From NCBI GenBank assembly GCA_015501605.1, contig JADNRZ010000010.1, positions 1,912,780 through 1,976,779 on the forward strand: a stretch of 64,000 bases of DNA, in the 5' to 3' direction. The notes under the pieces were generated by a model. It was not told the DNA's origin and made no database searches. It saw only the letters and a list, made by a program, of their open reading frames with translations. A program made the position numbers and the translations under genes. The stretch comes from Panaeolus papilionaceus. Lineage: Eukaryota; Basidiomycota; Agaricomycetes; Agaricales. Of this stretch, positions 11,266-63,481 are shown in pieces; the first letter of the stretch is position 1; each line of letters begins with the position of its first letter.

Positions 11266-12682
11266 CTAAACAAGGTATGATACTTCAAATAAAAGACCAG
11301 GCTGCTCAGCAGACACTTGAAATACTTGTTCATGTATGCTGTCAATTTCTCTAATCGTCTCCTTCACAATCTTGGATTCAAGATTGGATGAATGAATGGC
11401 CAACGGGAGATGACCAGCACAAAAGTTCAAGGTAAACTTGAAACTCTCATCACCCGCTATCCGAGCGATTTGTTTTCTCAGCGAGGGCCAATCAGCGCTC
11501 GAAAGCGCAGCAATTGTATGTTGGGAGTACGCCCTGAGATGGAATGTCATCTCAATCCCTTTAAGGGTGCTCGGCACTGAAACTGATCCGAGTGAAGCTG
11601 CAATGTTCGCCACCAGAGAGCTATACCGGCCTCCAAATACAAGGGAGATGTTGATATACTGTAGTTCGGTGCACTGCGAGAAGTCGAGTAACTGAATTGT
11701 GTAAAGATAATCTGTATCAGAGAACAAGTCAGCATTGACTATCATTTATGTACAGAGGTCGGTAAAAGAGTCAACCGTGTTGGTGCTACTCACACTCTGG
11801 CATTCCAGGATTCAGAATGCTCTGCAACCACCCTTGGTCACTCGGGGTCATGATCCTCAATTTCTTTAATGAGTCCTTCGCCTCGACAAGTATTCGCTGT
11901 ATGGCCTGGGCGTCTAACCAGACTGACATTTCGTCGGTGTATTCCGCCAAACCAGAAAGGTTAGCGAAAGGGTGGGACAGGCTGGGATGTGAGGCGAGCA
12001 CCGACAACATTAATCGAGATTGCTTCACCCTGAGATTTTGAATATCTGGTAGGGGAGTACTAGACGTTCTGCGAGGGATAGCTGACATGCGCTCCGGGTG
12101 AGCGTAAGTAAAACTAAGATCACGTAGGTGAGGCGACTCCGATATCAACGTAAGGGGAACGCTGCTGAGTAGGAAGATGTGGAGAGAGACCAATCGCGGG
12201 GCAATGAATGGGATCAAGACGTTCTTTTCGAAGGCTCGATTGTCTGCGATTTTGACATCTTCAGAGGTACCCCGCAACAAAAGAGAATTAAATCCGCTAT
12301 CTGGGCACGCAAGTCTCCCCATAAGGTCAATGAAATCAACATCGTCGCTGATCCATTTGTTGGTATAGCCCAAAGTTATTGAAACGGTTCGTATTGAACC
12401 CGCCAAATATGGTTTGTTGTCGATTATCTTTGAGAGCCGTTGACATCTCTGTGATATCGAGGCTGGGGCGTTATCATGATGCAGGCTTCGCAGAATTTCA
12501 TCGTCGGTCAACCTGATTTCTCTGAAGAGCATGGTTTGAGATTTGACAGCGAAATGCTTGGACACTTGGCTGCAGACTCGGAGAGTAGTGCAATCCTCCT
12601 GTTCATCGGGATTGAGGTAGTCGAGGATATCTTCAACAATTTCGGGAAAAAGTTGAGGACCAATTGTCTTGGACGACGACAT
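11266..12682 (-). CDS. F-box protein (locus 1)
   Basis: Two exons, 12682-11794 and 11711-11266, join in phase 1 across an 82-nt intron and give 444 residues. The N-terminal F-box reads LFPEIVEDILDYL ... LRVCSQVSKHFAVKSQTMLFREI at about residues 11-60, the typical fungal form. The rest is leucine-rich with spaced hydrophobic strands, as in F-box proteins with degenerate LRRs. The expected role is substrate recruitment to an SCF ubiquitin ligase. Its first 25 codons and about 190 bp of upstream DNA are repeated at 16849-17119, next to another F-box gene. Confidence 0.75.
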
Positions 12683-17119: not shown

Positions 17120-18423
17120 ACGAAATAGTGGGAGGTATCTAAATAAAGACCCTGCATCCTTTTCAACTAAACCATTGGAGACCACTGCAGGGATTTGACC
17201 CTTATACTCTCCTTCAGATCCGGTTTCTCCACGCGGCTCAGCATCAACGTCTTTGGTCCAGACTGGTCGAAAGCGCTCGTACATGAATATCACTTGGAGC
17301 GGGCGTCCGGAGTGGAAAGATATCTCCACAGGTCCGACGTCGATAAACTTGAGTGTCGAACAGGCAGAAAATACGGACGCTAATACTGGAGCATCTGTAT
17401 TTCCGCTACACCCCGCAGAGGTATCGAGTGTTATCGACTCCAAACAGACAAAAGCAGATCCTAGGGTTGCGATGTTGTTCTGGGATGGGCGCAAATAGAG
17501 CGAGAATGAATTAGCGCAGTAAGAAATAGATCGGAGCAGTTTGAGCATACCAATATTTGGTCCATCTCAACGTGAAGGTGTCGCAGAATAGGGCATTTGT
17601 CAAGGAAAAATGGAAACGACGGCTCAGGAGTTTCAGAGAGCAGAGGTCCTAGGAAGCAGTGGTAGATAGAAAGCTCTTCAAGCCCGTTCAATAAGGTGAG
17701 CAAGCCATCGTCGAGATTTGCTTGGGTTGGGAGCTCGTCCCATGGACTTTTAAACCAGGACAAGCTTTCAATCTTGTTCTTCCTTCCTGACGTCACGCTC
17801 AGTATATCTGCCCACGCCCCACCAATCCCCTCCAGTTCAGGACAGGAGGAAGGTCCAAGAGGTTGTATATTAGATTCATTGGATGCCTCCATCCGCAGAA
17901 TTCGAAGCGATTGTTGATGGGTCTGCAGAAATGATATCAAAGCAGGCGTATCTTCCATGTCATAGATACCTGGGCCCCAGATAAAGGTGTGAAGTTCCTT
18001 GTCTTTAAGAGCGCCTAGCAGCTGTGTAATGGGTGGCAGATGCATGGGCACATATAAATTGATGATGAAGAATTTGAGGTTCGACATCAGTGACAACGCA
18101 GCAAATACTGTCTCCCAGTACTTCGATATCTCCTTTGCTCGCTCCAGTCCTCGTTCCTGAGTGCTCCCAAAACGCTCAATGCAACCAAAGCGGCGCACAT
18201 ACAAAGCAAGACGGGGATTTCCATTGATTGTGGACACAAATCCATCGTAGGACGATGAGTAAAGCCAGTCCGTCATCTCCTCGTACAGTAGGCGTTCGAT
18301 GGCGATCCGAAACGATCGACATAGAAAAAGGAGGTGGTAAAGGTCTTTCCTGTCGTCCGATAGCAAAGAAAATATATCAAGCAGCAGTTCGTTGGGTAGA
18401 GAGAAACGAGGACGTTTGGCCAT
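17084..18423 (-). CDS. F-box protein (locus 2)
   Basis: Two exons, 18423-17551 and 17479-17084, join in phase 0 across a 71-nt intron for 422 residues. The N-terminus has an F-box-like segment, SLPNELLLDIFSLLSDD ... LLFLCRSFRIAIERLLYEEM at residues 7-52. The rest contains leucine-rich strands typical of the family. The last dozen codons (VVRNDRKYQKE) lie inside the duplicated segment copy B, so the present C-terminus was captured from the upstream DNA of F-box locus 1. Function: presumed SCF substrate receptor. Confidence 0.72.
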
Positions 18424-45240: not shown

Positions 45241-46294
45241 TTGAAATCAGCTAATTTAAATATCTGGGGCCAGAATCCCTTAAAATATTAAAAATCCCTG
45301 AAAATGAATTACACAATTCATATGACCTGGGGCAAAAGGTAGCCCTCAGAATATTATATTGGGTATTTTTAGTATACCCTTAGCCTCTACCATTAACTAC
45401 AAGGGCCATGGTTTGTGCCCAATAAGTCAGTCAGTATCTCTCTGGTTTAAACATGGTAGATCATGAATATTGTCTCTAATAGTGCTTAGAACTTTTCAGT
45501 TTTTTGAGAAATGTATACATATTATATTTGCTTAGTGAGGCAGCATGTACACATGTCAAAAGCCATTTGCATGCAGGCAAAGGTCAGAATCACAATGCAC
45601 ATTGGCCAACTTTCCTAATAAGGAAAGTCCAGTATCTGCCACCAGCATGTGTGACCAGCCACATTTTGCTTTCCTTGGTCAATAAAGAAAATCCAAAGGT
45701 TAGTGCTAGACATGACTAACCCCACAACTTGTTGATTAAAATTATTCAAAACTCTAGCTTATCCCATTAAAGATCTAACTAGAAACTGGAGGACAAGTCA
45801 AATGTAGAAGTTCACAATTTGTAACATCATAAAATCTGCAGGATCCCTATAGTCATGGACAAGCAAAGCTTGAAATTATCATAGTTTGGGAACCAAGAGT
45901 ATGAATATTCTAATTTTTTGTGAGCAAACTCAGATTTCAAAAATATGTCCAAAAACACCATTCCAAAGTTTTTCCATAGCATTTTGGGGGGTGGACATGT
46001 TTTTGAGGCAAAAAAATTAGTACCAAACAGGGCTTGATCCACACATTAAGAGTGTGGGAACCTTCCAAATTGGCTCAGATGTTGGTCTGCACTGACCAAC
46101 TTGGCTCCCAAGGTGGGTTATGAAAGGCACAAATCTGTATTTGGGGTGGATGTTCTGATGAATTCAATGTGTCTGGGGCAAAATTATGACATTTGTGCTA
46201 AAATATAATTTATGGTCAAGCTGATGTGGGGCAGAACCAAAAACAGAAGCAAAATATCTCACAAATGAAGAGTATGATTTTTTTGAAAAGTATC
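45241..46294. other. AT-rich non-coding stretch left of the gypsy element
   Basis: About 1 kb with no supported gene. It could be further decayed gypsy sequence; nothing is recognisable. Confidence 0.4.
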
Positions 46295-46615
46295 TGTAAG
46301 GGCACCTCAGACACACACAAGTCCTAGGGGAGATCCAAAGATATATATAAGCTCTACATAAATACAGGAAGTATACTCACCTAGGGGAGATCCAAAGAGA
46401 AAGAGGTAAAGGATCAAACCCAGGTGGAACAGCTATTTAAGTGATGAGCTGGCATTGGCATCAGCCTTGATGCCAAACAATGCCTTTGGGAATAATCAAA
46501 GGGAAACACAAAGGAATGACTATGAAACAGTGGAAACAAGTGAATAACAAATGAGTGACAACTAAAGGAGAGTGTAATATAATATATATGAGTCCATGGT
46601 ATGTCCAGATAATGA
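46295..46615 (-). repeat. truncated 3' LTR of the gypsy element
   Basis: These 321 bp match 51882-52202 almost base for base. The first ~350 bp of the LTR are missing: coding sequence just after the chromodomain joins directly into the middle of the LTR at about 46615, with ATAATGA shared at the joint. Confidence 0.9.
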
Positions 46616-49600
46616 TGAGGTCAGGAGCATGGACATTGCCAGCTGGTTCCCAAGAATTCCAACCAGCATCGTATCCTTCCCATTTGATCAGGTATCAAAG
46701 TTTGCCTCTGATGAACTTGCTGTTCAAAATCTTCTCTACAACAAACTCTTCAACATTGTCAACAAGCACTGGAGGTGGGGGTAGCTTGGCTCTTCAACCA
46801 GAGATGGGGTCATAAGGAGCAGGAGTGAGTCTGACAACATGGAAGACTGGATGGATACAGAAGAGCGATTTAGGAAGCTGAAGATGGTAGGCATTCTTTC
46901 CAACACTAGAAATGACTGGGTAAGGACCAACTTGCTTGTGGGAGAGCTTCTTGGATGGCCAAGTGGTTTGGATGTCTGAGGCATCAAGGTAGACACAATC
47001 TCCAGGCTTGATCTCAGGAGCCTTGGTGCAACACCAGTTGTAGTACCTAGCCATGTCCTCCTTAGCAGCTGCTAAGGCAGCACGAGCTTCCTCAAGAGCA
47101 GTCTTCATCCTATCAGTGAACTCATTCACAGTCTCCATCTGAGAGAGAGGAAGAGGTTCAAAGCCCATGCGAGGATGCTGACCAGAGTCTAGAAGGAAGG
47201 GAGTCTGCTGGGTGGAGGAGTGGACATGGTTGTTGTAGGTAAACTCAGCCATGGAAAGGATGTCATACCAGTCATCCTGTCGCTCAGAGATGTAGAGCCT
47301 GAGGTATTGTTCCAACTCCTGGTTGACATGCTCAGTCTGCCCATCAGTTTGAGGGTGACAGGCAGTGCTATGAGCTGGCTCAATCCCAAGCAGCCTGTAG
47401 AGTTCAGTAGTGAACTCTGCAATGAACTGTGGACCACGATCAGAGACTACCTTGGATGGAATGCCATGGAGTTTCCAGATATGGTCACGATACATGCGGG
47501 CAGTGCCTAGGGCAGAGACAGTGGTAGTGGTAGCAGTGAAGTGGGCGTGTTTGGAAAGGGAGTCAACAACAACCATGATGGCATCATAACCATTGGACTC
47601 AGGGAGCTCGACAATGAAGTCCACACTGATATGGTCCCAATGGCGGTCAGGAACAGCAAGGGGCTCAAGCTCTCCAAGGGGTTGCTGCCTGATGGTCTTG
47701 GTCCTAAGACACATGTCACAGGTGCTGGTGTAGAGTCCTATGAACTTAGACATGCATGGCCATCAGTAGTTTCTAGACACAAGCTCCAAGGTCTTCCAAC
47801 ATCCAGGGTGTCCAGCAAGAGTGGAGTCATGACAGAGAGCCACAATGCAGTGATGAAGATCACCACCTGGTGGAACATAGAGCTTTCCACAGAAGTAGAT
47901 AAGACCATCAGCTTCATCCCACTCTGAGGAGCGAAGAGACTGAGATCCAGTCTTTCTGAGTGCCTTGACTGCCTTGGCCACAGTGTTCTCAAGATCAGAG
48001 GCCTCCTTGGAATGTTGACGGATCTCACAAACCAGAGAGTGTTCCTGTCCAACAAATTCCAGACCTTCTAGTGCATGAACTGCAAACATCCCTGGGGTGA
48101 GGAGGGTGATGTTCTGGTTGTCACATTCACAAGAACCATGGTCAGACTGATGTGAGAGGGCATCTGCTTTTCCCATAGTAGCTCCTGCCTTGTGCTCCAT
48201 GACAAAGTCAAAGTGTGCCAGAGTGAGAGACCAGCAGGCTTGCCTGCGGTTGAGGTTCTGAGACAACATGAAGTATTCCAAGTTCTTGTGGTCAGTCCAG
48301 ATCTCAAACTTGTGGCAGGCACCTTCAAGGAAGTGTCTCCATTCCTGCAAGGCTCGAATGATTGCAAGCATTTCCTTGTCATGAATCTCATAGTTCCTTT
48401 CGACAGGAGAGAGTGACTTGGAGAAGAAAGCAATGGGATGCCACTTTCCATCTTCTGGAGACTGTTGAGAGAGTACAGCACCAGTGGCAAAGTCTGAAGA
48501 GTCAGCTTCAAGCTGGAAAGGAAGATCATCATTGGGAGCAGCAAGGACAGGGGAGGAGGTGACAGCATCCTTGATGGACTGGAAGGCAGTAGCAGCAGCA
48601 GGAGACCAGGAGAACTCAGTGGAGCTCTTGGTGAGGTCGAAGAGGGGATGTGCATGGTGAGAGAAGTCCTTGATGAACCGCCAATAGAAGTTGGCAAAGC
48701 CCAGGAAAGATTGGACTTCTTTCCTATTGGTGGGGGTGGGCCATTGAGCAACTCCAGCAACTTTGACAGGATCCATCTTGACTTGGTTCTCAGCAACAAT
48801 AAGCCCAAGGTACTCAATGTGTGTCTTCTCAAACTTGCATTTCTCCAGGCGGAGGCAGAGACCATGTTCCTCTAGACGCTTCAGGACCCTATGAGTGACC
48901 TCTCGATGCTCAGGAATATCCTTGGTGAAGATCAGGATGTCATCCAGATATACCACAACCACACCTTCAGAGATCATGTCTTGGAAGATCTCGTTCATCA
49001 TGGTTTGGAAGGTGGCAGGACTGTTGGTGAGACCAAAGAACATGACAAGAGGTTCGAAGAGACCTCTGTGAGTGCGAAAAGCAGCCTTCCACTCATCTCC
49101 TTCTTTGATGCGGACATTGTTGAAACCCCAACGAATGTCAAGCTTGGTGAAGTAGCGTGCACCACGAAGTTGGTTGATAAGGTCAGAGATGAGAGGGAGA
49201 GGGTACTTGTTCTTCACAGTCATATCATTGAGCATGCAATAGTCCTGGACCAGACGAAGGGAGCCATCCTTTTTCTTCACAAAGAAGACTGGTGATGCCA
49301 TGGGGGACTTGGAGTGGTGAATCTTTCCCTGAGCCTCATTCTCAGCAAGGAAGTGCTCAGCCTCTTCACGTTCTGCAGGTTTAATGGGTAAACCTTGCAT
49401 CCCTTGGGTTGAGCTCCAGGAATGAGCTCAATTGCATGATCCCAAGGTATTCTCTCAGGAAGCTTAAGAAACTCAGCTTCAGAGAAGACATAATGGAAGA
49501 GACTCTGATAGTCAGGGACTGGACCATGAGATGAGGAAGGGAGAGTGGTCTGTTCTGGTTGAGGAGCAGAGTTATGCAAGAAACCTTCAGCCAGGCATTG

Positions 49601-51751: not shown

Positions 51752-51881
51752 GGTTGCCAGACAGGGAGAAGAGAGGAGAGGGAGAAAGCACAGAGTCTAT
51801 AATGCAGCTGAACAGAAGAAGCAGAACAGAGGATGTAACAGACTGTATGCAGTCTCAGTCTCCAAGGTGACCTCTTTCTAC

Positions 51882-52555
51882 TGTAAGGGCACCTCAGACA
51901 CACACAAGTCCTGGAGGAGATCCAAAGATATATATCAGCTCTACATAAATACAGGAAGTAGGCTCACCTGGGGGAGATCCAAAGAGAAAGAGGTAAAGGA
52001 TCAAACCCAGGTGGAACAGCTATTTAAGTGATGAGCTAGCATTGGCATCAGCCTTGATGCTAAACAATGCCTTTGGGAATAAACAAAGGGAAATACAAAG
52101 GAATGACTATGTAACAGTGGAAACAAGTGAATAACAAATGAGTGACAACTAAAGGAGAGTGTAATATAATATATATGAGTCCATGGTATGTCCAGATAAT
52201 GAAACAGAGCAAAGGGAAATAGGGGGAAGGAGAGACAAGAGAGACAATGATAAGGAAAGGAATAGGAGGTAGCAGGAGATCCCCTGACAGGTGGTCCTTC
52301 CACAGCCTTGCCATCTTTGTTTGAGGTCAACAGGGCCATGCAGATTACACACCAAGAGAGCTCTTGTATGAACAGAAGATTGTACACAGTCTGCATACAG
52401 TCCAGCAATAAATTGATATGTTCATAATTTTTACAAACATTCTGAGAGAATACACTGATGTCCTTAGATTTGGTTTGAATCATTTCTAAGAACAATTGTG
52501 TGAGTGAGTGGGAGCAGAGCCATGACAGCTACTCACCTTAGTATATGCCCTAACA
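51882..52555 (-). repeat. 5' LTR of the gypsy element (674 bp)
   Basis: TG..CA ends read on the minus strand. Two copies of GGGGAGATCCAAAGA occur within it (about 51912 and 51970). The region just inside (51850-51881) is where a primer-binding site is expected, but no tRNA match was recognised. Confidence 0.88.
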
Positions 52556-52997
52556 TACCAGGTCTTTTTTTTTTTTTTGATTTTTTGATTTTTTTTGAAA
52601 TCAACAATTTATATACCAGGGCTTGTTAGCAGTCCAGTTGTGATTATCGCTAATATACATGAGATAAACTACATATACACCAACTCCTACTAAATACTCC
52701 ACATATCAAGAAATGAAGGGGGCTCAAGAGCTGCCCCAAGCTCAGAAGGGGACCTAAGGGCAATGGTTATGAAGCATAGCTAGCCTAAATCCAGAACAGG
52801 GGCAGTGCCACAAAGCGGCATTGCAGAGGAATGGTGGTAAAAGAAACCAAAGGGAGAGGGGTGCCTGCCAAAGACGTATGTGTTGAATCACAGTAAACAT
52901 CTACATCCAGAACAACTTGCTAGGGCACATGCCGAAGCACAGTGTTGGGGAGTGCCAGAGGATGATAACCCAATGCCCTCCATCCACTCAGCCATAC

Positions 52998-53299
52998 TGT
53001 CAGGGGATCTGTCACAGAACCCCCACCCTAGCGCGGTTACGGTGCACAGCCTGGTCATCATCTCTAGATCACTGTACAGCCGCCCGTTGCATCATTGATA
53101 CCCCTGTCGTAGTGCGCAGCCTCCTTTCCTGATTGTTTCGTCACCATCATTTGATATCGCATAGCCTTAGCCTATTCTTAGATTTAGCGCACAGCATACT
53201 GGTAGATAGTTTATCCGATGTAGTATATAGGCCAGTGGGGATCAGGATGATTCCTCACTCGATTATCAACTTGGCTTCTGGGCATTCCTATCCCTTACA
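52998..53299 (+). repeat. left LTR of the KH-domain element
   Basis: 302 bp, TG..CA. It should carry the promoter for the ORF. The sequence immediately inside (53300 on: TCATAATCGAGTCTC) does not start with the TGG of a standard primer-binding site. Confidence 0.9.
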
Positions 53300-53400
53300 T
53301 CATAATCGAGTCTCTACAGCAGTCTGCACCTCCCTAGCTCACTGCACACCATCTACTCCTCATCCTACAAGCCCTACCCTTCGCCCACACCCTGCTCCCA

Positions 53401-54423
53401 ATGTCTACTACACCAGAGATGTCCTTGGAAGAATTCGTCACTGAACAGTTCGACCAACTCTATGAGCGGATGAGGCTGCTCCAGGAGGAGCTTCGCTCCG
53501 TCACCAACCAGCTCTCTACCCAACAGACTATTGCAGCTATCGCACCTACCCAACCCTCTCGCCGTCAGCGGAAGAAGGCTGAGCCTCCCGCCCCACCGGC
53601 TCCTACTCCCCCACAAGGCACTATTCCCACCCACCTTCATATGTCGGGCACCTACCCTCAGAAGGACGACAAACCCGATCAGCAGTTGCTCACTGTCATT
53701 GTACCCGACGCGATGGCAGCGCACCTGGTTGGGCGAGGTGGAAGGGGTCTTAAACAGATCCATGACTTATCTGGTGCGCACATCCGAGCCTTTGAGGTAA
53801 AGGACGGATCAGCTGGTGCCCGCCACGTCTCTATTCGTGGTACCGACTCTCAAGTTGGTAATGCCCTTGTTGTATTGGGCAAGCGGCTCGCTCGTCGCCG
53901 AGTCCGCGCCCCTAGGCAGCGGGATGCTCCGGGTCCTGCTCGTGATGCCAGTGGGAGGCCAACCGCTGGGAAGTTCCGTGAAGCCCCTGTTCCCATTGTT
54001 CAGGCTGCTCCGGCCACTCAGCCCCCCTCGCCACCATCAATTCCTCAGTCCGCCGCTCTAACCCCTGCAGCACCGTCGGCAACTCCTACCCCTGCTCCAG
54101 GCTCTACTCCGGTCGTCCCCTCCATCGTCATGAACACGGCCGCCCCACCTTCACCGGTGGCTACCCCAGGTGCTCGATCAGCTTCGACGACACCTGTGAA
54201 CCAGCCCAACACTCCCATCGCGCCTACAGCCGTGATGCAGACCGCCAACCCTACCCCGGCACTCTCGCCTGGCTCGCCGATGAGCATTGATGCGATGAGA
54301 GCCCACTTCTCAGCACTTGCGCCCACTCTTGGGAACCCTATCCCCCCCACTGCTCCTTCAAGGGGTGGTCGCGGTGTGGTTTTCCGGGAGCGCAGTGGAC
54401 GAGGCGGTAGATGTGGAAGCTAA
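53401..54423 (+). CDS. KH-domain Gag-like protein of the LTR element
   Basis: Uninterrupted frame of 340 codons from the first ATG 101 bp after the left LTR to a TAA-type end 38 bp before the right LTR. Residues 8-45 form an amphipathic heptad-like helix (FDQLYERMRLLQEELRSVTN), a possible multimerisation coil. A basic patch (SRRQRKKA) and a Pro/Ala linker follow. Residues about 96-166 are a type-I KH fold: TVIVPDAMAAHLVGRGGRGL and KQIHDLSGAHI, with the RNA-contacting GxxG as GRGG at 111-114. Then comes RRRVRAPRQR, a 130-residue Pro/Thr/Ser region, and a C-terminal RGGRG...RSGRGGR motif. KH plus RGG implies RNA binding. Role as a Gag that packages the element's RNA is inference from position; I know of no such retroelement protein. 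Confidence 0.85.
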   Translation: MSTTPEMSLEEFVTEQFDQLYERMRLLQEELRSVTNQLSTQQTIAAIAPTQPSRRQRKKAEPPAPPAPTPPQGTIPTHLHMSGTYPQKDDKPDQQLLTVIVPDAMAAHLVGRGGRGLKQIHDLSGAHIRAFEVKDGSAGARHVSIRGTDSQVGNALVVLGKRLARRRVRAPRQRDAPGPARDASGRPTAGKFREAPVPIVQAAPATQPPSPPSIPQSAALTPAAPSATPTPAPGSTPVVPSIVMNTAAPPSPVATPGARSASTTPVNQPNTPIAPTAVMQTANPTPALSPGSPMSIDAMRAHFSALAPTLGNPIPPTAPSRGGRGVVFRERSGRGGRCGS

Positions 54424-54461
54424 GGGATTTGCTGGGGCAGCAAATCTAGATGGGGAGATAG

Positions 54462-54763
54462 TGTCAGGGGATCTGTCACAGAACCCCCACCCTAGCGCGG
54501 TTACGGTGCACAGCCTGGTCATCATCTCTAGATCACTGTACAGCCGCCCGTTGCATCATTGATACCCCTGTCGTAGTGCGCAGCCTCCTTTCCTGATTGT
54601 TTCGTCACCATCATTTGATATCGCATAGCCTTAGCCTATTCTTAGATTTAGCGCACAGCATACCGGTAGATAGTTTATCCGATGTAGTATATAGGCCAGT
54701 GGGGATCAGGATGATTCCTCACTCGATTATCAACTTGGCTTCTGGGCATTCCTATCCCTTACA
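54462..54763 (+). repeat. right LTR of the KH-domain element
   Basis: 302 bp, matching the left LTR with one visible substitution (ATACTGG versus ATACCGG). Near identity means recent insertion. Confidence 0.9.
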
Positions 54764-55227
54764 CATACCCAGCATGATTGTGAGGCTTGGTGAAGGAGAA
54801 CGTGGCAGGGTTATCCTTGAGGAAGCGCACCAACCCAACAAGAGTTGATGGAACAGATTTGCCTTTGAACAATCGACAACAGGCAAGAATGTGGAGTCGG
54901 TCCATGCATGGTGAGCCGCAGGGGCAGGCTGTGGGTTCAAGAGGTTTGAAGCATGCATAATATGAGCCCATCGGAGTGTGGTTGGTGATGCAACGCACAG
55001 CGCTAGCCGTTAAAGTAGGAGACTCGTCGATTTGAGGGATCCATTGGCCGGACTTTGCAGCAGTTGGAGTGATTTCGATGTCCTTGAGGGACTTGAGCAC
55101 CAAGAAGTGATGCCCTCGCACTTGTGGAGCCATGAACTGACAAGTCCATGCCCCTTCGCACCTAGCATCAGCCTCGCGACGAAGCCAGGAGAGCGTAGTG
55201 TTGACTTTGCGACCAACAGAGACAGTG
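54764..55227 (-). pseudogene. host LINE, C-terminal region of ORF2
   Basis: Reads VGRKVNTTLSWLRREADARC, then KSGQWIPQ ... TASAVRCITNHTPMGSYYAC and a zinc-knuckle-like CPCGSPCMDRLHILACCRLF. This parallels GSWLPVFEAGPLSLTARAVH in the other LINE copies, so the order RNase H - WLR(x)F/E - CCHC is the family layout. One frame change is needed near 55190. The left edge is the KH element's target site, the right edge the inverted-arm element's target site. Confidence 0.75.
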
Positions 55228-58200
55228 CACTAGTGGCTACCACTTTTTATTAATAATTCAGGACAGTTGCCCTGTGGACAATAATACCACTTGCCCTGTA
55301 ATTTATGAAATGATGAGTGCCCTGTTTTTTATGATAATGCCTCAGGTAACTTTAGTGTGCGATTTCATAGATATTATCATAATTGTCAGGCTGATTTTCA
55401 TAGCAACATTTTATATGCTGTAGACATTTTCATGCTGCCCTTGTGATGTTCATGCAATATTATTATCGTTTTCATGATTATGCCTGATATTTTCATGATT
55501 GGTAGGGCAATATTATCATGGATTTCATGATTACTAGGGCGATATTCTTCTTGATTTCATAGATTCCCTTGATCTTATCAGTGCATTTTCTTATCAAATC
55601 AGGGCAATTCTAAATATAGAATTGCCATAATATGACATCATTAGATCAGATCACTATTATCTCCGCTTTTTTTGGACCCTTATCTCATCCATCAATTACA
55701 TCAAATCAGGGCTCTGCCCCTGTTGCACCCATTATTTCTAGCATTTATTACACCGCTTTTCTGGCCACTTTATATGGACATATATATACCATTAGAAAGT
55801 TAAAATTGCCTACTATTTGATTCTGAATTTTATTCAATTTAATTCCTGCAGGGGAGCAGCCAATTCAGCTCCGCTTCTTCCCATCAATTTAGCCCCTATT
55901 CATTTATGCTACTATTCCTGCTGCATTTGCACCGCTTTTTTGGCACTTTTTCTGGTGCACATATATACCATTAGAAAGCCCTAATTGTCTAGTTTAAGAA
56001 TATGCCCTCAGTTTTACAATAGCCCCACTAGGGGCTGCACTATTTAGCTGCGCTTTTTGGGTATTTAATTAGCCCCTATTTTGAATCAGCATTATTCCTG
56101 CTCCATTTTGCACCACTTTGGTGCAATTATATATGGACATATATATATCACCAGAAAGCTACAAATGCCTAGATTAAGAATCTGAAATCAGAATATAAAT
56201 GTTGTGTCTAGGGAGGGAGCAATTGCATTTCGCATTTGGGCATTAGAGCGTGGGAACACCCTTGATCACCTCTTCTCCTCCTCCTCCCACCGCGTTTCTG
56301 CCTCCATTTCTCCACATCCACTCCACCCCTTGGCCTATAATTTGGCATGGAGGTGTATGTTATGTATTATAAACAGCCTATGCAGTAGGAACCCAAGGAG
56401 ACCCCTATGAATGCAGCTATTCTGCATTTAGTCTGTTTTTGCTGCTAATTCTGCCAAAAGAGGACCCAATAGTCCTCAATAACTCGCATTTTGTCCAGGA
56501 TAAAGCCATGGATATATGTTGTTCTGTGCCACATATCATGTGTTCACAGTTCTAGATCATATAGAAACAGCCATATGCTGTCTCACAGGTTCCCAAAATA
56601 CTATATTGGGTATATCTCTACCATTTCTGACCGCTTCATAGTGATGAAAAATGTTCTAAAGTCGCCTCAAGAATACCTACAAAACAAGGGTACTCACAGC
56701 AAATTCTGAGCACTTTTCAAAAATGATGCTGATAAGCCATTTATACAAGATCTGCATTGAAATAATTTAATCAGACCTTGTGGAGACAAGGGTATACACT
56801 GTTATTGATGTTTTCAAAAGGTTTGAGAATATTTGAGTGAGTGTGGAAGGTAGGAGACACAAATGGGTGCTGGAATGCAGTTTGATGTAGTGTGTATGCT
56901 CAATGAACTGACAACAACTAGTATTCTCTTTAACTGTTTCTCTCGTTCTATGAGCTACACTTGACCAATCTCTTTCAAAAAAATTTTAAATTGAAGATAT
57001 ATCAATTCTAAACACATTTCAAGTGTATATTGGCACACAGACAATGATACCACCATACTAGAGTCTCAACACCTCCTCCAGACTATCTGTGATTCATGGT
57101 GGATATTAATTATGCTATATCTCCATGAGGAGAGATCAGATTTCTATGATGAAGCACACATTTGAAAGGTGTTTACAACTGCGGTTTAGAAGATCTTTGA
57201 TCTTGAAAATTGGTTAAGAAATGCAAATGATATTGGTCTAGAAACAAAGGGTATAATGAGATGATGATTTAAGCTAGTTTGCATGTAGTGGAGGGCTAAA
57301 TATTGATTTCTGATGCATGAAACATGTATACACATCTCATGATATAATACCTGATGCTTTGGTTGCGTTCTAATGAATCAAATACTATGCTTTGGCTCCG
57401 CTTTTGGAGCAACATGATCCATACCAGATGTATATAGTGTATTTATGCATATATACGGATGCCAGTGTCCTGTAAGCTTGCACCCACTATTTGATAGTAT
57501 ATATACACCTCCATGCCAAATTATAGGCTGAGGGGTAGAGTGGATGTGGAGAAATGAGGGCAAAAAAGCGGTGGGGGGATGAGGAGAAGAGGTGATCAAG
57601 GGTGTTCCCACGCTCTAATGCCCAAATGCGAAATGCAATTGCTCCCTCCCTAGACACAACATTTATATTCTGATTTCAGATTCTTAATCTAGGCATTTGT
57701 AGCTTTCTGGTGATATATATATGTCCATATATAATTGCACCAAAGTGGTGCAAAATGGAGCAGGAATAATGCTGATTCAAAATAGGGGCTAATTAAATAC
57801 CCAAAAAGCGCAGCTAAATAGTGCAGCCCCTAGTGGGGCTATTGTAAAACTGAGGGCATATTCTTAAACTAGACAATTAGGGCTTTCTAATGGTATATAT
57901 GTGCACCAGAAAAAGTGCCAAAAAAGCGGTGCAAATGCAGCAGGAATAGTAGCATAAATGAATAGGGGCTAAATTGATGGGAAGAAGCGGAGCTGAATTG
58001 GCTGCTCCCCTGCAGGAATTAAATTGAATAAAATTCAGAATCAAATAGTAGGCAATTTTAACTTTCTAATGGTATATATATGTCCATATAAAGTGGCCAG
58101 AAAAGCGGTGTAATAAATGCTAGAAATAATGGGTGCAACAGGGGCAGAGCCCTGATTTGATGTAATTGATGGATGAGATAAGGGTCCAAAAAAAGCGGAG

Positions 58201-58633
58201 ATAATAGTGATCTGATCTAATGATGTCATATTATGGCAATTCTATATTTAGAATTGCCCTGATTTGATAAGAAAATGCACTGATAAGATCAAGGGAATCT
58301 ATGAAATCAAGAAGAATATCGCCCTAGTAATCATGAAATCCATGATAATATTGCCCTACCAATCATGAAAATATCAGGCATAATCATGAAAACGATAATA
58401 ATATTGCATGAACATCACAAGGGCAGCATGAAAATGTCTACAGCATATAAAATGTTGCTATGAAAATCAGCCTGACAATTATGATAATATCTATGAAATC
58501 GCACACTAAAGTTACCTGAGGCATTATCATAAAAAACAGGGCACTCATCATTTCATAAATTACAGGGCAAGTGGTATTATTGTCCACAGGGCAACTGTCC
58601 TGAATTATTAATAAAAGTGGTAATCACCAGTCA
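55228..58633. mobile_element. 3.4-kb element with ~1.13-kb inverted arms and 6-bp target duplication
   Basis: The left arm (55228 to about 56357) and right arm (about 57506 to 58633) are near-identical inverted copies, around a 1.15-kb spacer. ACAGTG lies directly outside both ends (55222-55227 and 58634-58639). The left end begins CACTAGTGGCTACCAC; the right end, read inward, is TGACTGGTGATTACCAC. No frame beyond ~90 codons and no transposase motif is found in arms or spacer. Superfamily unknown. Confidence 0.88.
55660..56200. repeat. three ~180-bp tandem units in the left arm (mirrored at 57660-58200)
   Basis: AGAAAG preceded by an ACATATATA-rich box recurs at 55794, 55973 and 56153, spacing 179 and 180 bp. 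Around each are shared pieces: a (C)ACCGCTTTT box, TATATGGACATATATA, AATTGCCTA and a GGGGC-flanked CTGCG/CTCCGCTT block. The units are degenerate but clearly in register. The same array is present in reverse in the right arm. Confidence 0.75.
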
Positions 58634-58639
58634 ACAGTG

Positions 58640-59324
58640 AGCTCACATGCCATGCAGTGAGCTTTGTAGTGAGGTGCCCATCAAATCATTGAAGGCACAT
58701 GGACAAAGGTAAGCAAGTGATCTTCGCTCCTGGAGAACCACTCAGCTAGCAGATGACAGTTGGCCAGGGCATGCACCTGACCAGGACCAACAGATGGATC
58801 TACAGATCACATGGCCATGCCCAAGCTATCAGTGAATACCACAATGTGTGTGCACCCCTCCTGGTGCGAGGCGAAGGAAATAGCACACCAAATGGCAAAG
58901 AGCTCCACATACTGGGCCAGAGACTTGCCTGCAACGTTCTTGGAGCTGTGGAACTCCCACCCATTGCGATAATACACCGCCAAAACAGTGGACTGGTGAT
59001 GCCATGATGGAGGCACAGAGGCATCCACAATAGCTGACACAGTGTGGGGGCTGGTATCTCCCCAGCCAAGGATGGTGTCCAACTCATCGCGGCGCGTTTC
59101 GGCACTCGTTCCTGGTATGGTGCTCCTGGTGATGATGCGATTGTTAAAACGATCAAGCAAGCAGTGGCCTGGACAAGCCTCTGGAGGGAATCCCTGCATT
59201 GGTTCATCAAGCTGGAGGAGGTTGGTGTCGATCTCCATGACTGCACTCTGGACTTTGGCCTTCTGGGCACCAGTCACCTTTGAGATGGCTCAAGGGTGAG
59301 GGTGTGCCTTGCCAGTGTGCTGCT
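58640..59324 (-). pseudogene. host LINE, RNase H part
   Basis: From 59324 leftwards: VTGAQKAKVQSAVMEIDTNL (spacer), then SAIVDASVPPSW, YVELFAIWCAISFA and HIVVFTDSLGMAM, which carry the RNase H acidic residues (Asp in VDAS, Glu in VELFA, Asp in FTDS). A TGA follows MAM, and a second lies a little further, in a FVHVPSMI-type segment. The right boundary is the 14-bp target duplication of the LINE insertion. Confidence 0.75.
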
Positions 59325-61576
59325 TTTTTTCTTTTTTTTTTTGGTTCAACAATTTATATACCGGTGCGCGACTGGCAGTCCGGTCAGTTCATAGTAAGTA
59401 CAAACGAGCAGTAAACTACAGGAATGTCCACTCCCCAATTCAGTTGGGTATATACTACAGCAGGCACAAGGCAAGCAGTGTCGTAGGGCAAGATATCAAA
59501 GCCGATTGCGCAGCAATAAGGATGTGTCCCACCAAAGCAGGTGTCTGTTAAGCGTGGCGTTCTGTGTGTTGTTGGTGTTAACGCACCTCGACGCAGTTGC
59601 CGATCACGAAGCATGGGCGAGCCTGAGGGGGCGCCTACTGGCCAAAGCCCTTGAGTTACCTCACGGACGAACCGCGCAGGCAACGGGCAGCTAAACTCTA
59701 GTCCGCATACACACCGAAATGTGCTCCCCAACCACTGGTTATGACGCCGAAGCTTCCAGCATGCAAGGGCACTGTCGCTGGCATCCAGTTAAGGACTGCT
59801 TGGGTGACGAACCATTGTCTCAACCACACATGCTGTCGGGACCCCAACAAGCGTCCATCTTCAGCACATCATCCTACACCCATGTCCTCCTGAGGGCGGT
59901 CGGGGTGTATAGCAGAGAAGGAGAACGCGCAGGGGTGCGCGTTCAAGAATCGGTTTAGCTCCCAGGTGTCCCAGGGATAACCACAATGTGCCTTGAATTT
60001 CTTACAATGGCACAAGATGTGTGAGCGCCACCTGAAGCGTCCGCAGACGCACTGGGGGGCTGGGAGATTGAATTGCATGTGGTGATAATATTCACCAATG
60101 GGAGTGTGGCCTGTTATACAATGAACCGCACGGGCGGTCAAAGACAGGGGACCTGCTTCGAACACTGGTAGCCAATGGTGCGTCTGCGGACGCTTCAGGT
60201 GGCGCTCACACATCTTGTGCCATTGTAAGAAATTCAAGGCACATTGTGGTTATCCCTGGGACACCTGGGAGCTAAACCGATTCTTGAACGCGCACCCCTG
60301 CGCGTTCTCCTTCTCTGCTATACACCCCGACCGCCCTCAGGAGGACATGGGTGTAGGATGATGTGCTGAAGATGGACGCTTGTTGGGGTCCCGACAGCAT
60401 GTGTGGTTGAGACAATGGTTCGTCACCCAAGCAGTCCTTAACTGGATGCCAGCGACAGTGCCCTTGCATGCTGGAAGCTTCGGCGTCATAACCAGTGGTT
60501 GGGGAGCACATTTCGGTGTGTATGCGGACTAGAGTTTAGCTGCCCGTTGCCTGCGCGGTTCGTCCGTGAGGTAACTCAAGGGCTTTGGCCAGTAGGCGCC
60601 CCCTCAGGCTCGCCCATGCTTCGTGATCGGCAACTGCGTCGAGGTGCGTTAACACCAACAACACACAGAACGCCACGCTTAACAGACACCTGCTTTGGTG
60701 GGACACATCCTTATTGCTGCGCAATCGGCTTTGATATCTTGCCCTACGACACTGCTTGCCTTGTGCCTGCTGTAGTATATACCCAACTGAATTGGGGAGT
60801 GGACATTCCTGTAGTTTACTGCTTGTTTGTACTTACTATGAACCGACCGGACTGCCAGTCGTGCACCGGTATATAAATTGTTGAACCAAAAAAAAAAAAA
60901 AAAAAAAAACACTGGTAGCCAAGACCCACCCTTCTTAGTAGTGGGCTTGAGGAGACAGCCATGCACGTTGTGCAGGGGCATAAACTGTTTGCCCCTGTAT
61001 GATTGATCTGAGAACTGCGCGTCCCAGAGTGAGAGTGCTTTGCGATCTGCAAAATCGCGGAGCCAGGTGAGTGTCGTGCGCGGTTGTGTACCGACGTGGA
61101 CACTGGGGAGAGACCTGACAGCCTTGTGAGCTTTCCCCTGTGGACCCCAGCGAAGCTGGGAGGGGGTGTATACAAAGAGTACTCGGCGGTTGGCTCCCTG
61201 CGCTAAGGCGCGTACGATGGCCAGGCTGTGTTCCTGGCCTCCATGTTCAGTGCAGTCCAATGTGAGCCTGATGGCGGGCATGCAGTCGGAAAAGAGATAA
61301 ACCCGCTCGCACCTGGGGAAGGTGATAGCCTTGCACAGAGCGAGACAAATCACAAAGAGTTCTGCGTCAACAGAGGTCACTCTGCCTGACAGGATGCAAG
61401 TGAGCCATGGCTCTTCAGCCAATGGCTCACATGACACACGGTCAGTCCTTGGGTCACATGTTCCCAGAGGGTTCGCAGCATACACTAATGCCACTACTGC
61501 TGACTGGAAGTGATCATACCATGGTACTGCTGCATCGCAAGCAGCCACAAATGAACCAGGAGTAGCAATTATCTCA
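59325..61576 (-). mobile_element. 5'-truncated LINE inserted in the host LINE
   Basis: GCCAGTGTGCTGCT flanks it (59311-59324 and 61577-61590). On the minus strand it runs from 61576 through RNase H (VTSVDAELFVICLALC, VYLFSDCMPAIRL, FVYTPSQLRWGPQGKAHKAV), WLRDFADRKALSLW and KKGGSWLPVF to the CxC-HxxxC region, ending in GTATATAAATTGTTGAACC plus an A tail (T-run at 59325-59342). It is interrupted at 60176-60907 by a second fragment. Confidence 0.87.
60176..60907 (+). mobile_element. plus-strand LINE 3' fragment inserted in the LINE above
   Basis: AACACTGGTAGCCAA flanks it (60161-60175 and 60908-60922), a 15-bp target duplication. It starts TGGTGCGTCTGCGG, encodes the end of ORF2 (FRWRSHILCHCKKFKAHCGY ... 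DRPQEDMGVG) and ends in a >20-nt A tail at 60886-60907. Being in opposite orientation to its host, it makes an inverted repeat: 59326-60052 with 60180-60907. Confidence 0.9.
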
Positions 61577-61577
61577 G

Positions 61578-62330
61578 CCAGTGTGCTGCTTGCTCATGAG
61601 AGAGCGAAGCAGGTGGGTGTCTGCAAGCATGCTCACACGAAGTGTGGAACAATTGGTGAGGCATTTGAGGTAGAGTGGAATGGGGATGAGGGCAGCAAGT
61701 GCTTCAACAGTGCCAGTGGGAGCAGTACTAAACACACCAGTGATCCAGAGCGCAGCTTTTTGCTGCATTTTGACAAGTTCAGCCATGAGTGTCTTGTTGT
61801 GAGCACCATTGTAGAACCAGAGGCGGTGACTGTATGTCACAATGGGGAGGATACAGGACCTGTAAAGAAGACGTTGCTGACATGCATTCAAGCCACGAGT
61901 AGAGAAACCAAGCATGCACATGGCCTTGACGGTTGTAAGCGCTTTGGTGGAGTAATAGCGCACATGCTCCTTGAACGAGAGCGTGCAGTCAAAATAGAAG
62001 CCAAGGTACCGCCAGTACAGCTTGGGTGTGAGGGGAGTGTTGCCAGTGTAGGGAGCGAAGCCCAGATCCAGCAGTGGGTTGTACTTGTCGCGTGCATGAG
62101 AGAAGTGAAAGAGCTCAGACTTGTCATGTTCAAGAATGAGGGCAAAGGTGGTGAAAAGCGCATAGATGACCACATACGCGTCCCTAAGGACTTTGTTGTT
62201 ACAATCGAGAGAGGGGGATTGGACAAGGATAGTGCCATCATCAACAAAGGAGAGGAGGGTGGACTTGAAATGAGTGGTCTGGAGCTCATACAGCTTCATG
62301 AGCAGTGTGATATAGAGGGCTAATAGAACC
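61578..62330 (-). pseudogene. host LINE, C-terminal part of reverse transcriptase
   Basis: Minus-strand frame with VLLALYITLLMKLYELQ, the catalytic STLLSFVDDGTILVQS (the YxDD box as FVDD), LYWRYLGFYFDCTLSFKEHV and the thumb segment CQQRLLYRSCILPIVTYSHR. It is interrupted after LMSKQHTG by the LINE insertion at 59325-61576. The upstream RT motifs are cut off at 62330 by the poly-A end of another LINE copy. Confidence 0.85.
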
Positions 62331-62332
62331 AG

Positions 62333-63481
62333 TTTTTTTTTTTTTTTTTTTTTGTTCAACAGTTTATATACTGGTGTGCAGCTGGCAGTCCGGTTGGATC
62401 ACAGTAAATACAAACGAAGTACGAGTACTAGGAATGACTACTCCCCAATTAAGTTGGGTATATACCACGGCAGACTAATCTAAGGCGAGCGCGAAGCGCA
62501 AGCAAAGAACGTGGGGCAAGTTATCAAAGCTGATTGCGCAGCAAATAAGCCTCCCCCTCACGAGAAGGGCAGCAGTACAGAGTGATCAACCGAGCGTCGT
62601 CGGGTTAATGCCCTCGACCCGGTTGTCGAACAGAAGGGGCGCCTACTACTTGAAGCCCTTGGTTACCCATGGATGGGCACCAGGCGGCTAAACTCCATCC
62701 CGCATACACACCGAGGTGTGCTCCCCGACCACTGGTTATGACGCTGAGGCTCCCAGCACGCAAGGGCCCTGTCGCTGGCATCCAATTAAGGACTGCTCGG
62801 GGGACAGGCCATCGTCTCAGCCTCCTGAATTTTCGGGACCCCAACAACCACCCCACTTCAGATCTTTATCCAACGCCCTCCTCCTCCCGAGGGCGGGAAG
62901 GGCGTATAGCAGCAAAGGAGAACGCGAGTGGGTTCGCGTTCAAGTATTTATAGAGCTCCCATGTATCCCATGGGAACCCGCAATAGTGTCTGTACTTCCG
63001 ACAAGAGCACAAGATATGGGAGCGCGTCCCGAAGTGCCCGCAGGTGCACTGAGGTGCGGGAAGGTTGAATTGCATACAGTGATAATATTCACTGATGGGG
63101 GCGTGGCCCGTAATACAACGAACTGCGCGTGCTGTCAAGGACGGGGGACCAGCCTCAAACGCGGATAACCAAGACCCACCCTTCTTCGTGGTGGGCCTGA
63201 GAAGACGGTCATGCTTGTCATGGAGGGGCATGAAATGCCTGCCTCTGTATGATTGTTCCAAGAACTTTGCTTCCCAGAGTTGAAGTGCCTTGCGATCTGC
63301 AAAATCACGGAGCCAGCTTAGTGTCGTGAGGGGACGTGCCCCAACATGAACACTGGGTAGAGATGTGACCATCTTGTGAGCGGTCCCCTGCAGGCCCCAG
63401 CGAAGCTGGGAGGGGACGTGTATGAAAAGTACATGCCGGTTGGCTGCCGCAGGCAGCCAACCGGCAAGAGCGCGCACGATG
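62333..63481 (-). mobile_element. LINE 3' end (third copy)
   Basis: From about 63481 leftwards: IVRALAGWLPAAANRHVLFI, VPSQLRWGLQGTAHKMV, WLRDFADRKALQLW, KKGGSWLSAFEAGPPSLTAR, the CCHC-like CTCGHFGTRSHILCSCRKY and a C-terminus RPSRPREEEGVG; then the 3' UTR and an A tail (T-run 62333-62353). The ORF is open from the breakpoint to its natural end. No target duplication matching the left flank was found at the right edge. Confidence 0.82.

Follow-up and report, generated by a model that had tools for sequence, protein, structure and literature searches.

To our knowledge, non-autonomous LTR elements are either non-coding or Gag-keeping, and the TRIM and LARD elements are non-autonomous. LINE-1, a non-LTR element, encodes an RNA-binding protein of its own, ORF1p, which has a coiled coil, a basic tail and a cis preference and uses an RRM together with a different C-terminal domain. 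According to the reports cited here, TRIM and LARD elements of Boletales are non-coding (PMC5689174); the TR-GAG elements of plants are short non-autonomous LTR elements with one intact ORF, a Gag, their Pol is thought to be borrowed in trans, and for the Arabidopsis TR-GAG there is a relative of high similarity that is potentially autonomous (PMC8704663); and Tj1 and Tf1 of fission yeasts share a layout in which the primer-binding site (PBS) is complementary to the 5' end of their own RNA (PMC4600332). Here we analysed a 64-kb window (the whole stretch of 64,000 nucleotides of Panaeolus papilionaceus DNA, on contig C2) and the genome around it (50.85 Mb, 71 contigs), focusing on a compact LTR element that is new among non-autonomous LTR elements because its sole gene is a selected KH protein. 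The initial annotation, made from the letters alone, had known of no described element of this kind, and likewise no description of a KH-encoding LTR element was found among the papers listed in searches of open-licence PMC text.

The layout of the element is given in Table 1. Direct LTRs with TG..CA ends and a target-site duplication mark it as an LTR retroelement, as they do in 22/22 copies, and a PBS and a polypurine tract adjoin the LTRs, the former of the self-priming kind and the latter a purine block with two T. The initial annotation was exact for the window copy as regards the length, ends and single visible difference of the LTRs (T at 53200 versus C at 54664), the CATAC duplicated on both sides and the intact 340-codon ORF. 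It had also reported a purine tract: a block does precede the right LTR, with GATGGGGAGATAG at 54449-54461 directly before it, but the two T inside mean that it is not pure purine. The element has no Gag-Pol of its own, its longest internal ORF being the KH protein and its Pfam content KH_1 alone. An Rfam search of the window at gathering thresholds found no family.

Table 1. Positions in the window of the features of the KH element and of the Ty3-type copy that represents its candidate partner family.
Feature	Position	Strand	Basis or remark
KH element, whole	52998-54763	+	1,766 bp
Left target-site duplication CATAC	52993..52997	.	Sequence
5' LTR, 302 bp, TGTCAGGGGATCT...CCCTTACA; TATATA at LTR position 227	52998..53299	+	
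Predicted transcript start and self-primer ACTCGATTAT (LTR 260-269), 33 nt 3' of TATATA	53257..53266	+	Inferred
PBS ATAATCGAGT, complement of self-primer, 2-nt spacer TC before it	53302..53311	+	
C-rich leader, 49% C, 9% G, six CCC runs	53312..53400	+	Candidate KH-domain target
ORF, KH protein, 340 codons/340 aa	53401..54423	+	
N-terminal long helix, residues 9-41	53425..53523	+	Predicted helix; probable coiled coil
KH_1 domain, residues 98-156, GRGG loop	53692..53868	+	Pfam, predicted fold
RG-rich tail, residues 321-338	54361..54414	+	Sequence
Purine-rich block (polypurine tract) 5' of 3' LTR	54437..54461	+	Alignable with Ty3-type partner block
3' LTR, 302 bp, one difference from 5' LTR	54462..54763	+	
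Right target-site duplication CATAC	54764..54768	.	Sequence
Partner copy 5' LTR, 408 bp	51882..52289	-	
Partner copy PBS AGAAAGAGGT, 2 nt past LTR; complement of ACCTCTTTCT at LTR position 296	51870..51879	-	
Partner copy Gag and protease frame, 639 aa	49832..51751	-	Retrotrans_gag above cut-off; protease matches below theirs
Partner copy RT and RNase H frame, 545 aa	47763..49400	-	RVT_1, RT_RNaseH, RT_RNaseH_2
Partner copy integrase frame, 319 aa, core and Tf2-1-like SH3 domain	46794..47753	-	rve, SH3_Tf2-1
Partner copy 3' LTR, truncated at its start	46294..46615	-	

A protein search of the genome returned 27 matches, comprising 22 full copies and five weak matches (E 0.011-0.121). Each of the 22 has two LTRs and a perfect 5-bp target duplication, the 22 duplications all differ from one another, and the ORF is open throughout, at 340-342 codons. 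The KH element is mobile. Twelve of the 22 LTR pairs are identical, nine carry one or two differences (0-2 in 21 copies overall) and the most diverged copy, L052, carries six. The recent movement that had been read from the window copy, and the many copies with different 5-bp duplications expected from it, were both found. With L052 left out, mean LTR divergence was 10 in 6,342 sites; at a fungal rate of 1.05e-9, quoted in PMC5689174, this gives an age of ~0.75 million years, which is probably an overestimate since most changes in the ORF are CpG transitions. A 21-base pattern of the LTR start had 63 matches, one with three mismatches and 62 with at most one; 44 of the 62 belong to the full copies, and the 18 elsewhere are presumably solo or broken LTRs.

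Pfam matched KH_1 in the encoded protein with an E value of 4e-9 (36.6 bits against a cut-off of 21.5). The AlphaFold2 model (mean pLDDT 62.8, pTM 0.37) contains the N-terminal helix and a KH fold at residues ~95-168, and is mostly of low confidence elsewhere, namely in the middle and beyond residue 170. The best solved structures by sequence were Nova-1 (E 3e-8) and hnRNP K, the top Foldseek match was hnRNP K KH3 (E 6e-4), and Foldseek and VIA-align grouped the model with KH domains of hnRNP K, PCBP, Nova, FUBP1 and IMP1. VIA-align placed KH-type folds on residues 80-174, with no capsid fold among the matches listed. Judging from the titles of the PDB matches, several of the matched KH domains were solved with C-rich strands. 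The protein therefore has the sequence and fold of KH type I with a GxxG loop, and the HMM and structure searches suggested at the outset both upheld the KH domain with GRGG loop that had been read by eye. The RGG tail proposed at the same time is present as well, though modest in the window copy (RGG at 321, GRGGR at 333-337). As for the proposed N-terminal coil, the helix is predicted, and a coiled coil would be its probable form.

It had also been proposed that RNA binding in this element would come from the KH domain, where Gag normally uses zinc knuckles. No CCHC zinc knuckle was present in the KH protein or in the 128 proteins returned by our searches, and no Gag family was matched at E 0.01 in any of 53 aligned sequences (the KH protein and P0001-P0052). 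KH_1 was matched in 52 of the 53, the other, weak Pfam matches being HsbA in two, CCDC53 in one and KH_2 in one. BLASTP between the KH protein and the neighbouring Ty3-type Gag gave no match, and Pfam found KH_1 only; in these searches no zinc-knuckle Gag homologue aligned. Across the genome, there were 39 KH_1 matches, 22 of them in the element copies. The 17 others, on C5, C12, C34, C56 and C67 and with one below the cut-off, look like host genes. When nine of the 17 were compared with the element, the nearest shared 18/61 and 17/59 identical residues (~30%); six family members had 40-64 identical of 63-75 residues. A single captured host gene was ruled out by this low identity and by the 22 full copies.

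Related proteins numbered 53 in one search and 172 in a profile search, and the hosts named among the matches listed were Crepidotus variabilis, Termitomyces sp. Mi166 and Phlegmacium glaucopus, all Agaricales. Many relatives share the size and layout of the KH protein, a heptad-like N-terminal stretch recurs in them, and 62 of 82 returned proteins of 320-425 aa have an RG motif within the last 25 residues. One protein, P0053 (E 0.007), has several KH-type domains and is probably a host protein; it lies outside the alignment and is counted in the totals of 53, 128 and 82. The DNA contigs of 76 proteins (322-422 aa; among 120 of the 172 listed) had a median length of 1,656 bases, with 40 at 1,450-1,850 bases, 14 shorter and 22 longer, and such short contigs would fit compact repeats assembled alone. 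A KH-Pol or KH-Gag-Pol fusion was sought among 282 candidates of ~825-2625 aa, and none was found at E 0.01. No relatives were confirmed in viral contigs or in bacterial and archaeal genomes.

The substitution pattern among copies, another check that had been proposed, pointed to constraint on the protein. Leaving aside one 6-base insertion in L047, the 22 ORFs differ by 52 changes, 30 synonymous and 22 non-synonymous, with no stops. In 5,000 draws that placed an equal number of changes per class at random positions, 33.8 non-synonymous changes were expected from the same spectrum, and a count as low as 22 occurred in 0.04% of draws (P 0.0004). Singletons alone gave 14/32 non-synonymous (P 0.0034), and the 20 of 52 changes common to two or more copies gave P 1.9%; these P values are optimistic, since changes shared by descent are not independent. 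Synonymous and non-synonymous changes numbered 2 and 0 in the helix, 10 and 3 in the KH domain (12 and 3 for both together) and 18 and 19 in the rest. The 22 open frames are weak evidence by themselves because the copies are young (P of no stop 0.17). CpG transitions account for 43 of the 52 changes, which suggests methylation-type decay or silencing of young copies.

As for priming, no TGG follows the 5' LTR at its edge. Instead, ATAATCGAGT, two bases inside the LTR edge, is the reverse complement of ACTCGATTAT at LTR position 260, and tRNA priming was rejected on these two grounds. A 10-nt self-complement was matched by 5 of 5,000 shuffled LTRs, a rare but not absent outcome; of the 1,122 other internal windows of 20 bases, none rose above a match of 8. 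The self-primer is kept in 22/22 copies and the PBS in 21/22, with one change in the most diverged copy. In the fold predicted for a transcript from LTR position 260 (-21.3 kcal/mol), nucleotides 1-10 pair with the PBS; the leader fold is only moderately stable (z -2.05, with 6/200 shuffles as good). These patterns in the sequence, read with a predicted transcript start, strongly suggest that the KH element is primed by itself, Tf1-like, and not by a tRNA. ARAGORN found no tRNA in the 64-kb window, a result that has no bearing on genomic tRNAs. Reading from the predicted start, the ORF's own ATG comes first, with none upstream. Fungal leaders are often pyrimidine-rich; the C content of this 89-nt leader was matched by 278 of 124,292 overlapping stretches of equal length on both strands of the window outside the element, the partner leader has 33% C, and C-rich stretches occur inside the KH ORF too, where 34/934 windows are at least as C-rich as the leader.

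An autonomous relative with matching LTR ends had been recommended as a target of search, and we found a likely one. The damaged Ty3-type element on the minus strand of the window (Table 1) has in common with the KH element the first 13 and last 8 bases of the LTR, both LTRs ending in CCCTTACA; locally, the two LTRs align best over precisely those first 13 bases, and the LTR bodies are otherwise unrelated. The comparison of ends was made between the KH element and this one Ty3-type family. The partner polypurine block, read at two other loci (C34 and C23), can be aligned with the KH element's block; none of 2,000 random internal 25-mers and 2 of 2,000 shuffles scored as high. The partner's self-primer stands 33 nt past a TATA-like TTAAATAG, with a 2-nt spacer before the PBS, the same geometry as in the KH element in other letters, which two chance matches would hardly explain. 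Its predicted RNA also pairs nucleotides 1-10 with the PBS, and its leader fold is no steadier than shuffles (z -0.7, 46/200 as good). The window copy's Gag frame contains no CCHC, and its integrase frame contains a match at E 1.7e-17 to the domain SH3_Tf2-1, whose name comes from a Tf element. Just upstream of its 3' LTR lies YLIKWEGYDAGWNSWEP, which by reading we take to be chromodomain-like, and the family is probably a chromovirus.

Genome-wide, the pattern TGTCAGGGGATCTNC had 142 matches against none for the reversed control. Among 100 listed places, 24 pairs share a strand and a spacing of 5.7-5.95 kb, and in 23 of these 24 (among the matches listed) an RT hit on that strand falls inside the pair, its offset nearly constant and, for plus-strand copies, ~3.05 kb as counted from the LTR start; the offsets use 74 of 150 RVT_1 hits. 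Thirteen RT hits have frames of at least 1,770 aa. Ten of them (1,780-1,786 aa), of which one has a stop within its match, adjoin a TGTCAGGGGATCTNC start. The other three do not, and for one of these (C58) the contig falls outside the listed places. One KH copy (C34:2071039-2072804) is nested in the pol of a partner-family copy (contig C34, about 2068827-2073800), where the distance from RT to 3' LTR is 4,560 instead of the 2,789 of an intact pair; the excess of 1,771 fits, to the base, the length of the KH element and its duplication. Seven of the 22 KH copies have one of the 150 RT hits within 10 kb; such zones cover ~5% of the genome (binomial P 1e-4). Overall, the agreement of the sequences strongly suggests that this Ty3-type family is the autonomous partner of the KH element. 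The 21-base search with the KH LTR start had missed it because the two diverge after base 13. A locus at C17:369573, with CCTTACA and the PBS at two mismatches, was rejected as the partner: this pattern at up to three mismatches had 7 matches outside the copies and 7 for the reversed control, which is chance level, and the nearest listed downstream RT is 12.7 kb away.

The rest of the window offered several side observations. Frames at 54759-55133 and 60679-62359 (minus strand) resemble, by reading, pieces of LINE-type RT/RNase H; if so, the KH element would have been inserted in old retroelement debris. Two inverted repeats follow downstream, one at 55245-56358 and 57503-58616 (1,114-nt arms, 99% complementary, 1,144 nt apart) and one at 59324-60052 and 60178-60906 (729-nt arms, 99% complementary, 125 nt apart), and the latter may have arisen by fold-back duplication or be an error of assembly. 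By reading, the minus strand has F-box-like genes at 11786-12682 and 17461-18423. The beginning of the former lies in a direct repeat of 100 nt (12609 and 16849, 94%), which points to duplication of a gene start.

Taken together, we lean towards the view that the KH element is non-autonomous and mobilised in trans by the Ty3-type family, and that its own KH protein marks or packages its own RNA. The RNA would probably start in the LTR at ACTCGATTAT, its first 10 nt would fold onto the PBS and, after cleavage, prime as in Tf1, and the partner's Gag-Pol would supply reverse transcription, integration and probably the particle in trans; the element's termini, polypurine block and self-priming fold appear to suit that machinery. 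The KH protein, with a helical and probably oligomerising arm, an hnRNP K/PCBP-type KH domain and an RG-rich tail, would attach to its own RNA shortly after being translated, with the C-rich leader as a possible site, and bring it into partner particles, and the ORF would be kept because the protein favours the RNA that encodes it. A KH domain would then do the job of a nucleocapsid or ORF1p. We infer the RNA target, the packaging role and the contact with partner Gag, the packaging role from domain logic. The Gag of the partner's window copy likewise lacks a zinc knuckle, so there might be a genuine benefit in handling RNA through a KH domain. With less confidence, we further suggest that a widespread mushroom retroelement lineage may have replaced RNA selection by Gag with a KH/RGG protein that reads its own C-rich leader in cis, letting a 1.8-kb element take over the particles, self-primed reverse transcription and integrase of a Ty3-type element to which it is otherwise alike at the ends only.

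Other roles for the protein have to be weighed against packaging. It might act on expression, through export, stability or translation of the element RNA or by shielding it from RNA-directed silencing. Its nearest folds are those of hnRNP K, PCBP and Nova, which regulate RNA export, stability and splicing, and the CpG decay among copies does suggest methylation-type silencing; we nevertheless regard such a role as unlikely, because a factor acting in the nucleus only would serve all copies alike and hardly keep the ORF intact in each lineage, so that a cis preference must be added. Somewhat less likely still, the protein could be a structural replacement of Gag that self-assembles through its N-terminal helix and RNA and takes only Pol from the partner. 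A helix, an RNA-binding domain and an RG tail are the layout of an assembling RNP protein, and both the recurrence of the heptad-like stretch in relatives and the absence of non-synonymous changes in the helix fit this. However, no capsid fold was predicted for the KH protein (though its residues beyond 170 are mostly of low confidence), and the partner's RT frames, at up to about 1,786 codons, are long enough for a fused Gag and Pol, by which Pol should enter particles through the partner's Gag.

The identity of the mobilising family and the worth of the ORF can also be questioned. The 150 RVT_1 hits have very different frame lengths, so more than one RT family is likely in this genome, and the LTR bodies of the KH element and the Ty3-type family share nothing past their ends; conceivably another LTR family mobilises the KH element, and the similar ends are a relic of common origin. 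We consider this improbable, as one abundant family agrees with the KH element in both LTR ends, polypurine block, spacer and TATA-to-primer distance, and drift without constraint would not have left untouched just the parts read by integrase and RT. Since KH is a common host domain and host-gene capture by retroelements is known in general, the ORF might even be a passenger, a captured fragment of a host KH gene without function for the element. The depletion of non-synonymous changes, the 172 related proteins, many of them with its size and layout, and the lack of a close host gene make this very improbable indeed.

Such a replacement of Gag's RNA selection by a KH/RGG protein, if true, would make for a class of retroelements whose defining feature is a borrowed RNA-binding protein of host type. 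Should the protein act in cis, RNA selection by a retroelement would be possible through a host-type KH domain rather than zinc knuckles, and cis action would explain why the ORF survives in an element able to rely on supply in trans. One gene and a candidate partner isolate the question of how a parasite's RNA comes to be selected for packaging. Short repeats with a KH annotation resemble a host gene, and the family may for this reason have escaped notice.

Compared with known systems, the KH element is LTR-bounded like TRIM and LARD elements, which have no coding capacity, whereas its 340-codon ORF is open in all copies and depleted of non-synonymous changes. By lifestyle, TR-GAG is the nearest kind: it too is short, non-autonomous and LTR-flanked, with one intact ORF and a Pol thought to come in trans, yet the Gag criterion fails, as the KH element has no detected Gag domain and no likeness to partner Gag, and its LTR bodies are unrelated to the partner's, unlike the Arabidopsis TR-GAG with its highly similar relative (PMC8704663). 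If its RNA starts as predicted, its PBS would be complementary to the 5' end of that RNA, the arrangement of Tf1, Tf2 and Tj1 of fission yeasts; Tj1 carries Gag, PR, RT and IN, all four of which the KH element could use only in trans (PMC4600332). The KH protein has the KH type I fold of hnRNP K, PCBP and Nova, its best solved-structure matches, but these have several KH domains where it combines a single one with a helix and an RG tail. It resembles LINE-1 ORF1p in being a retroelement-encoded protein of RNA-binding type, built on an RRM there and on a KH domain here.
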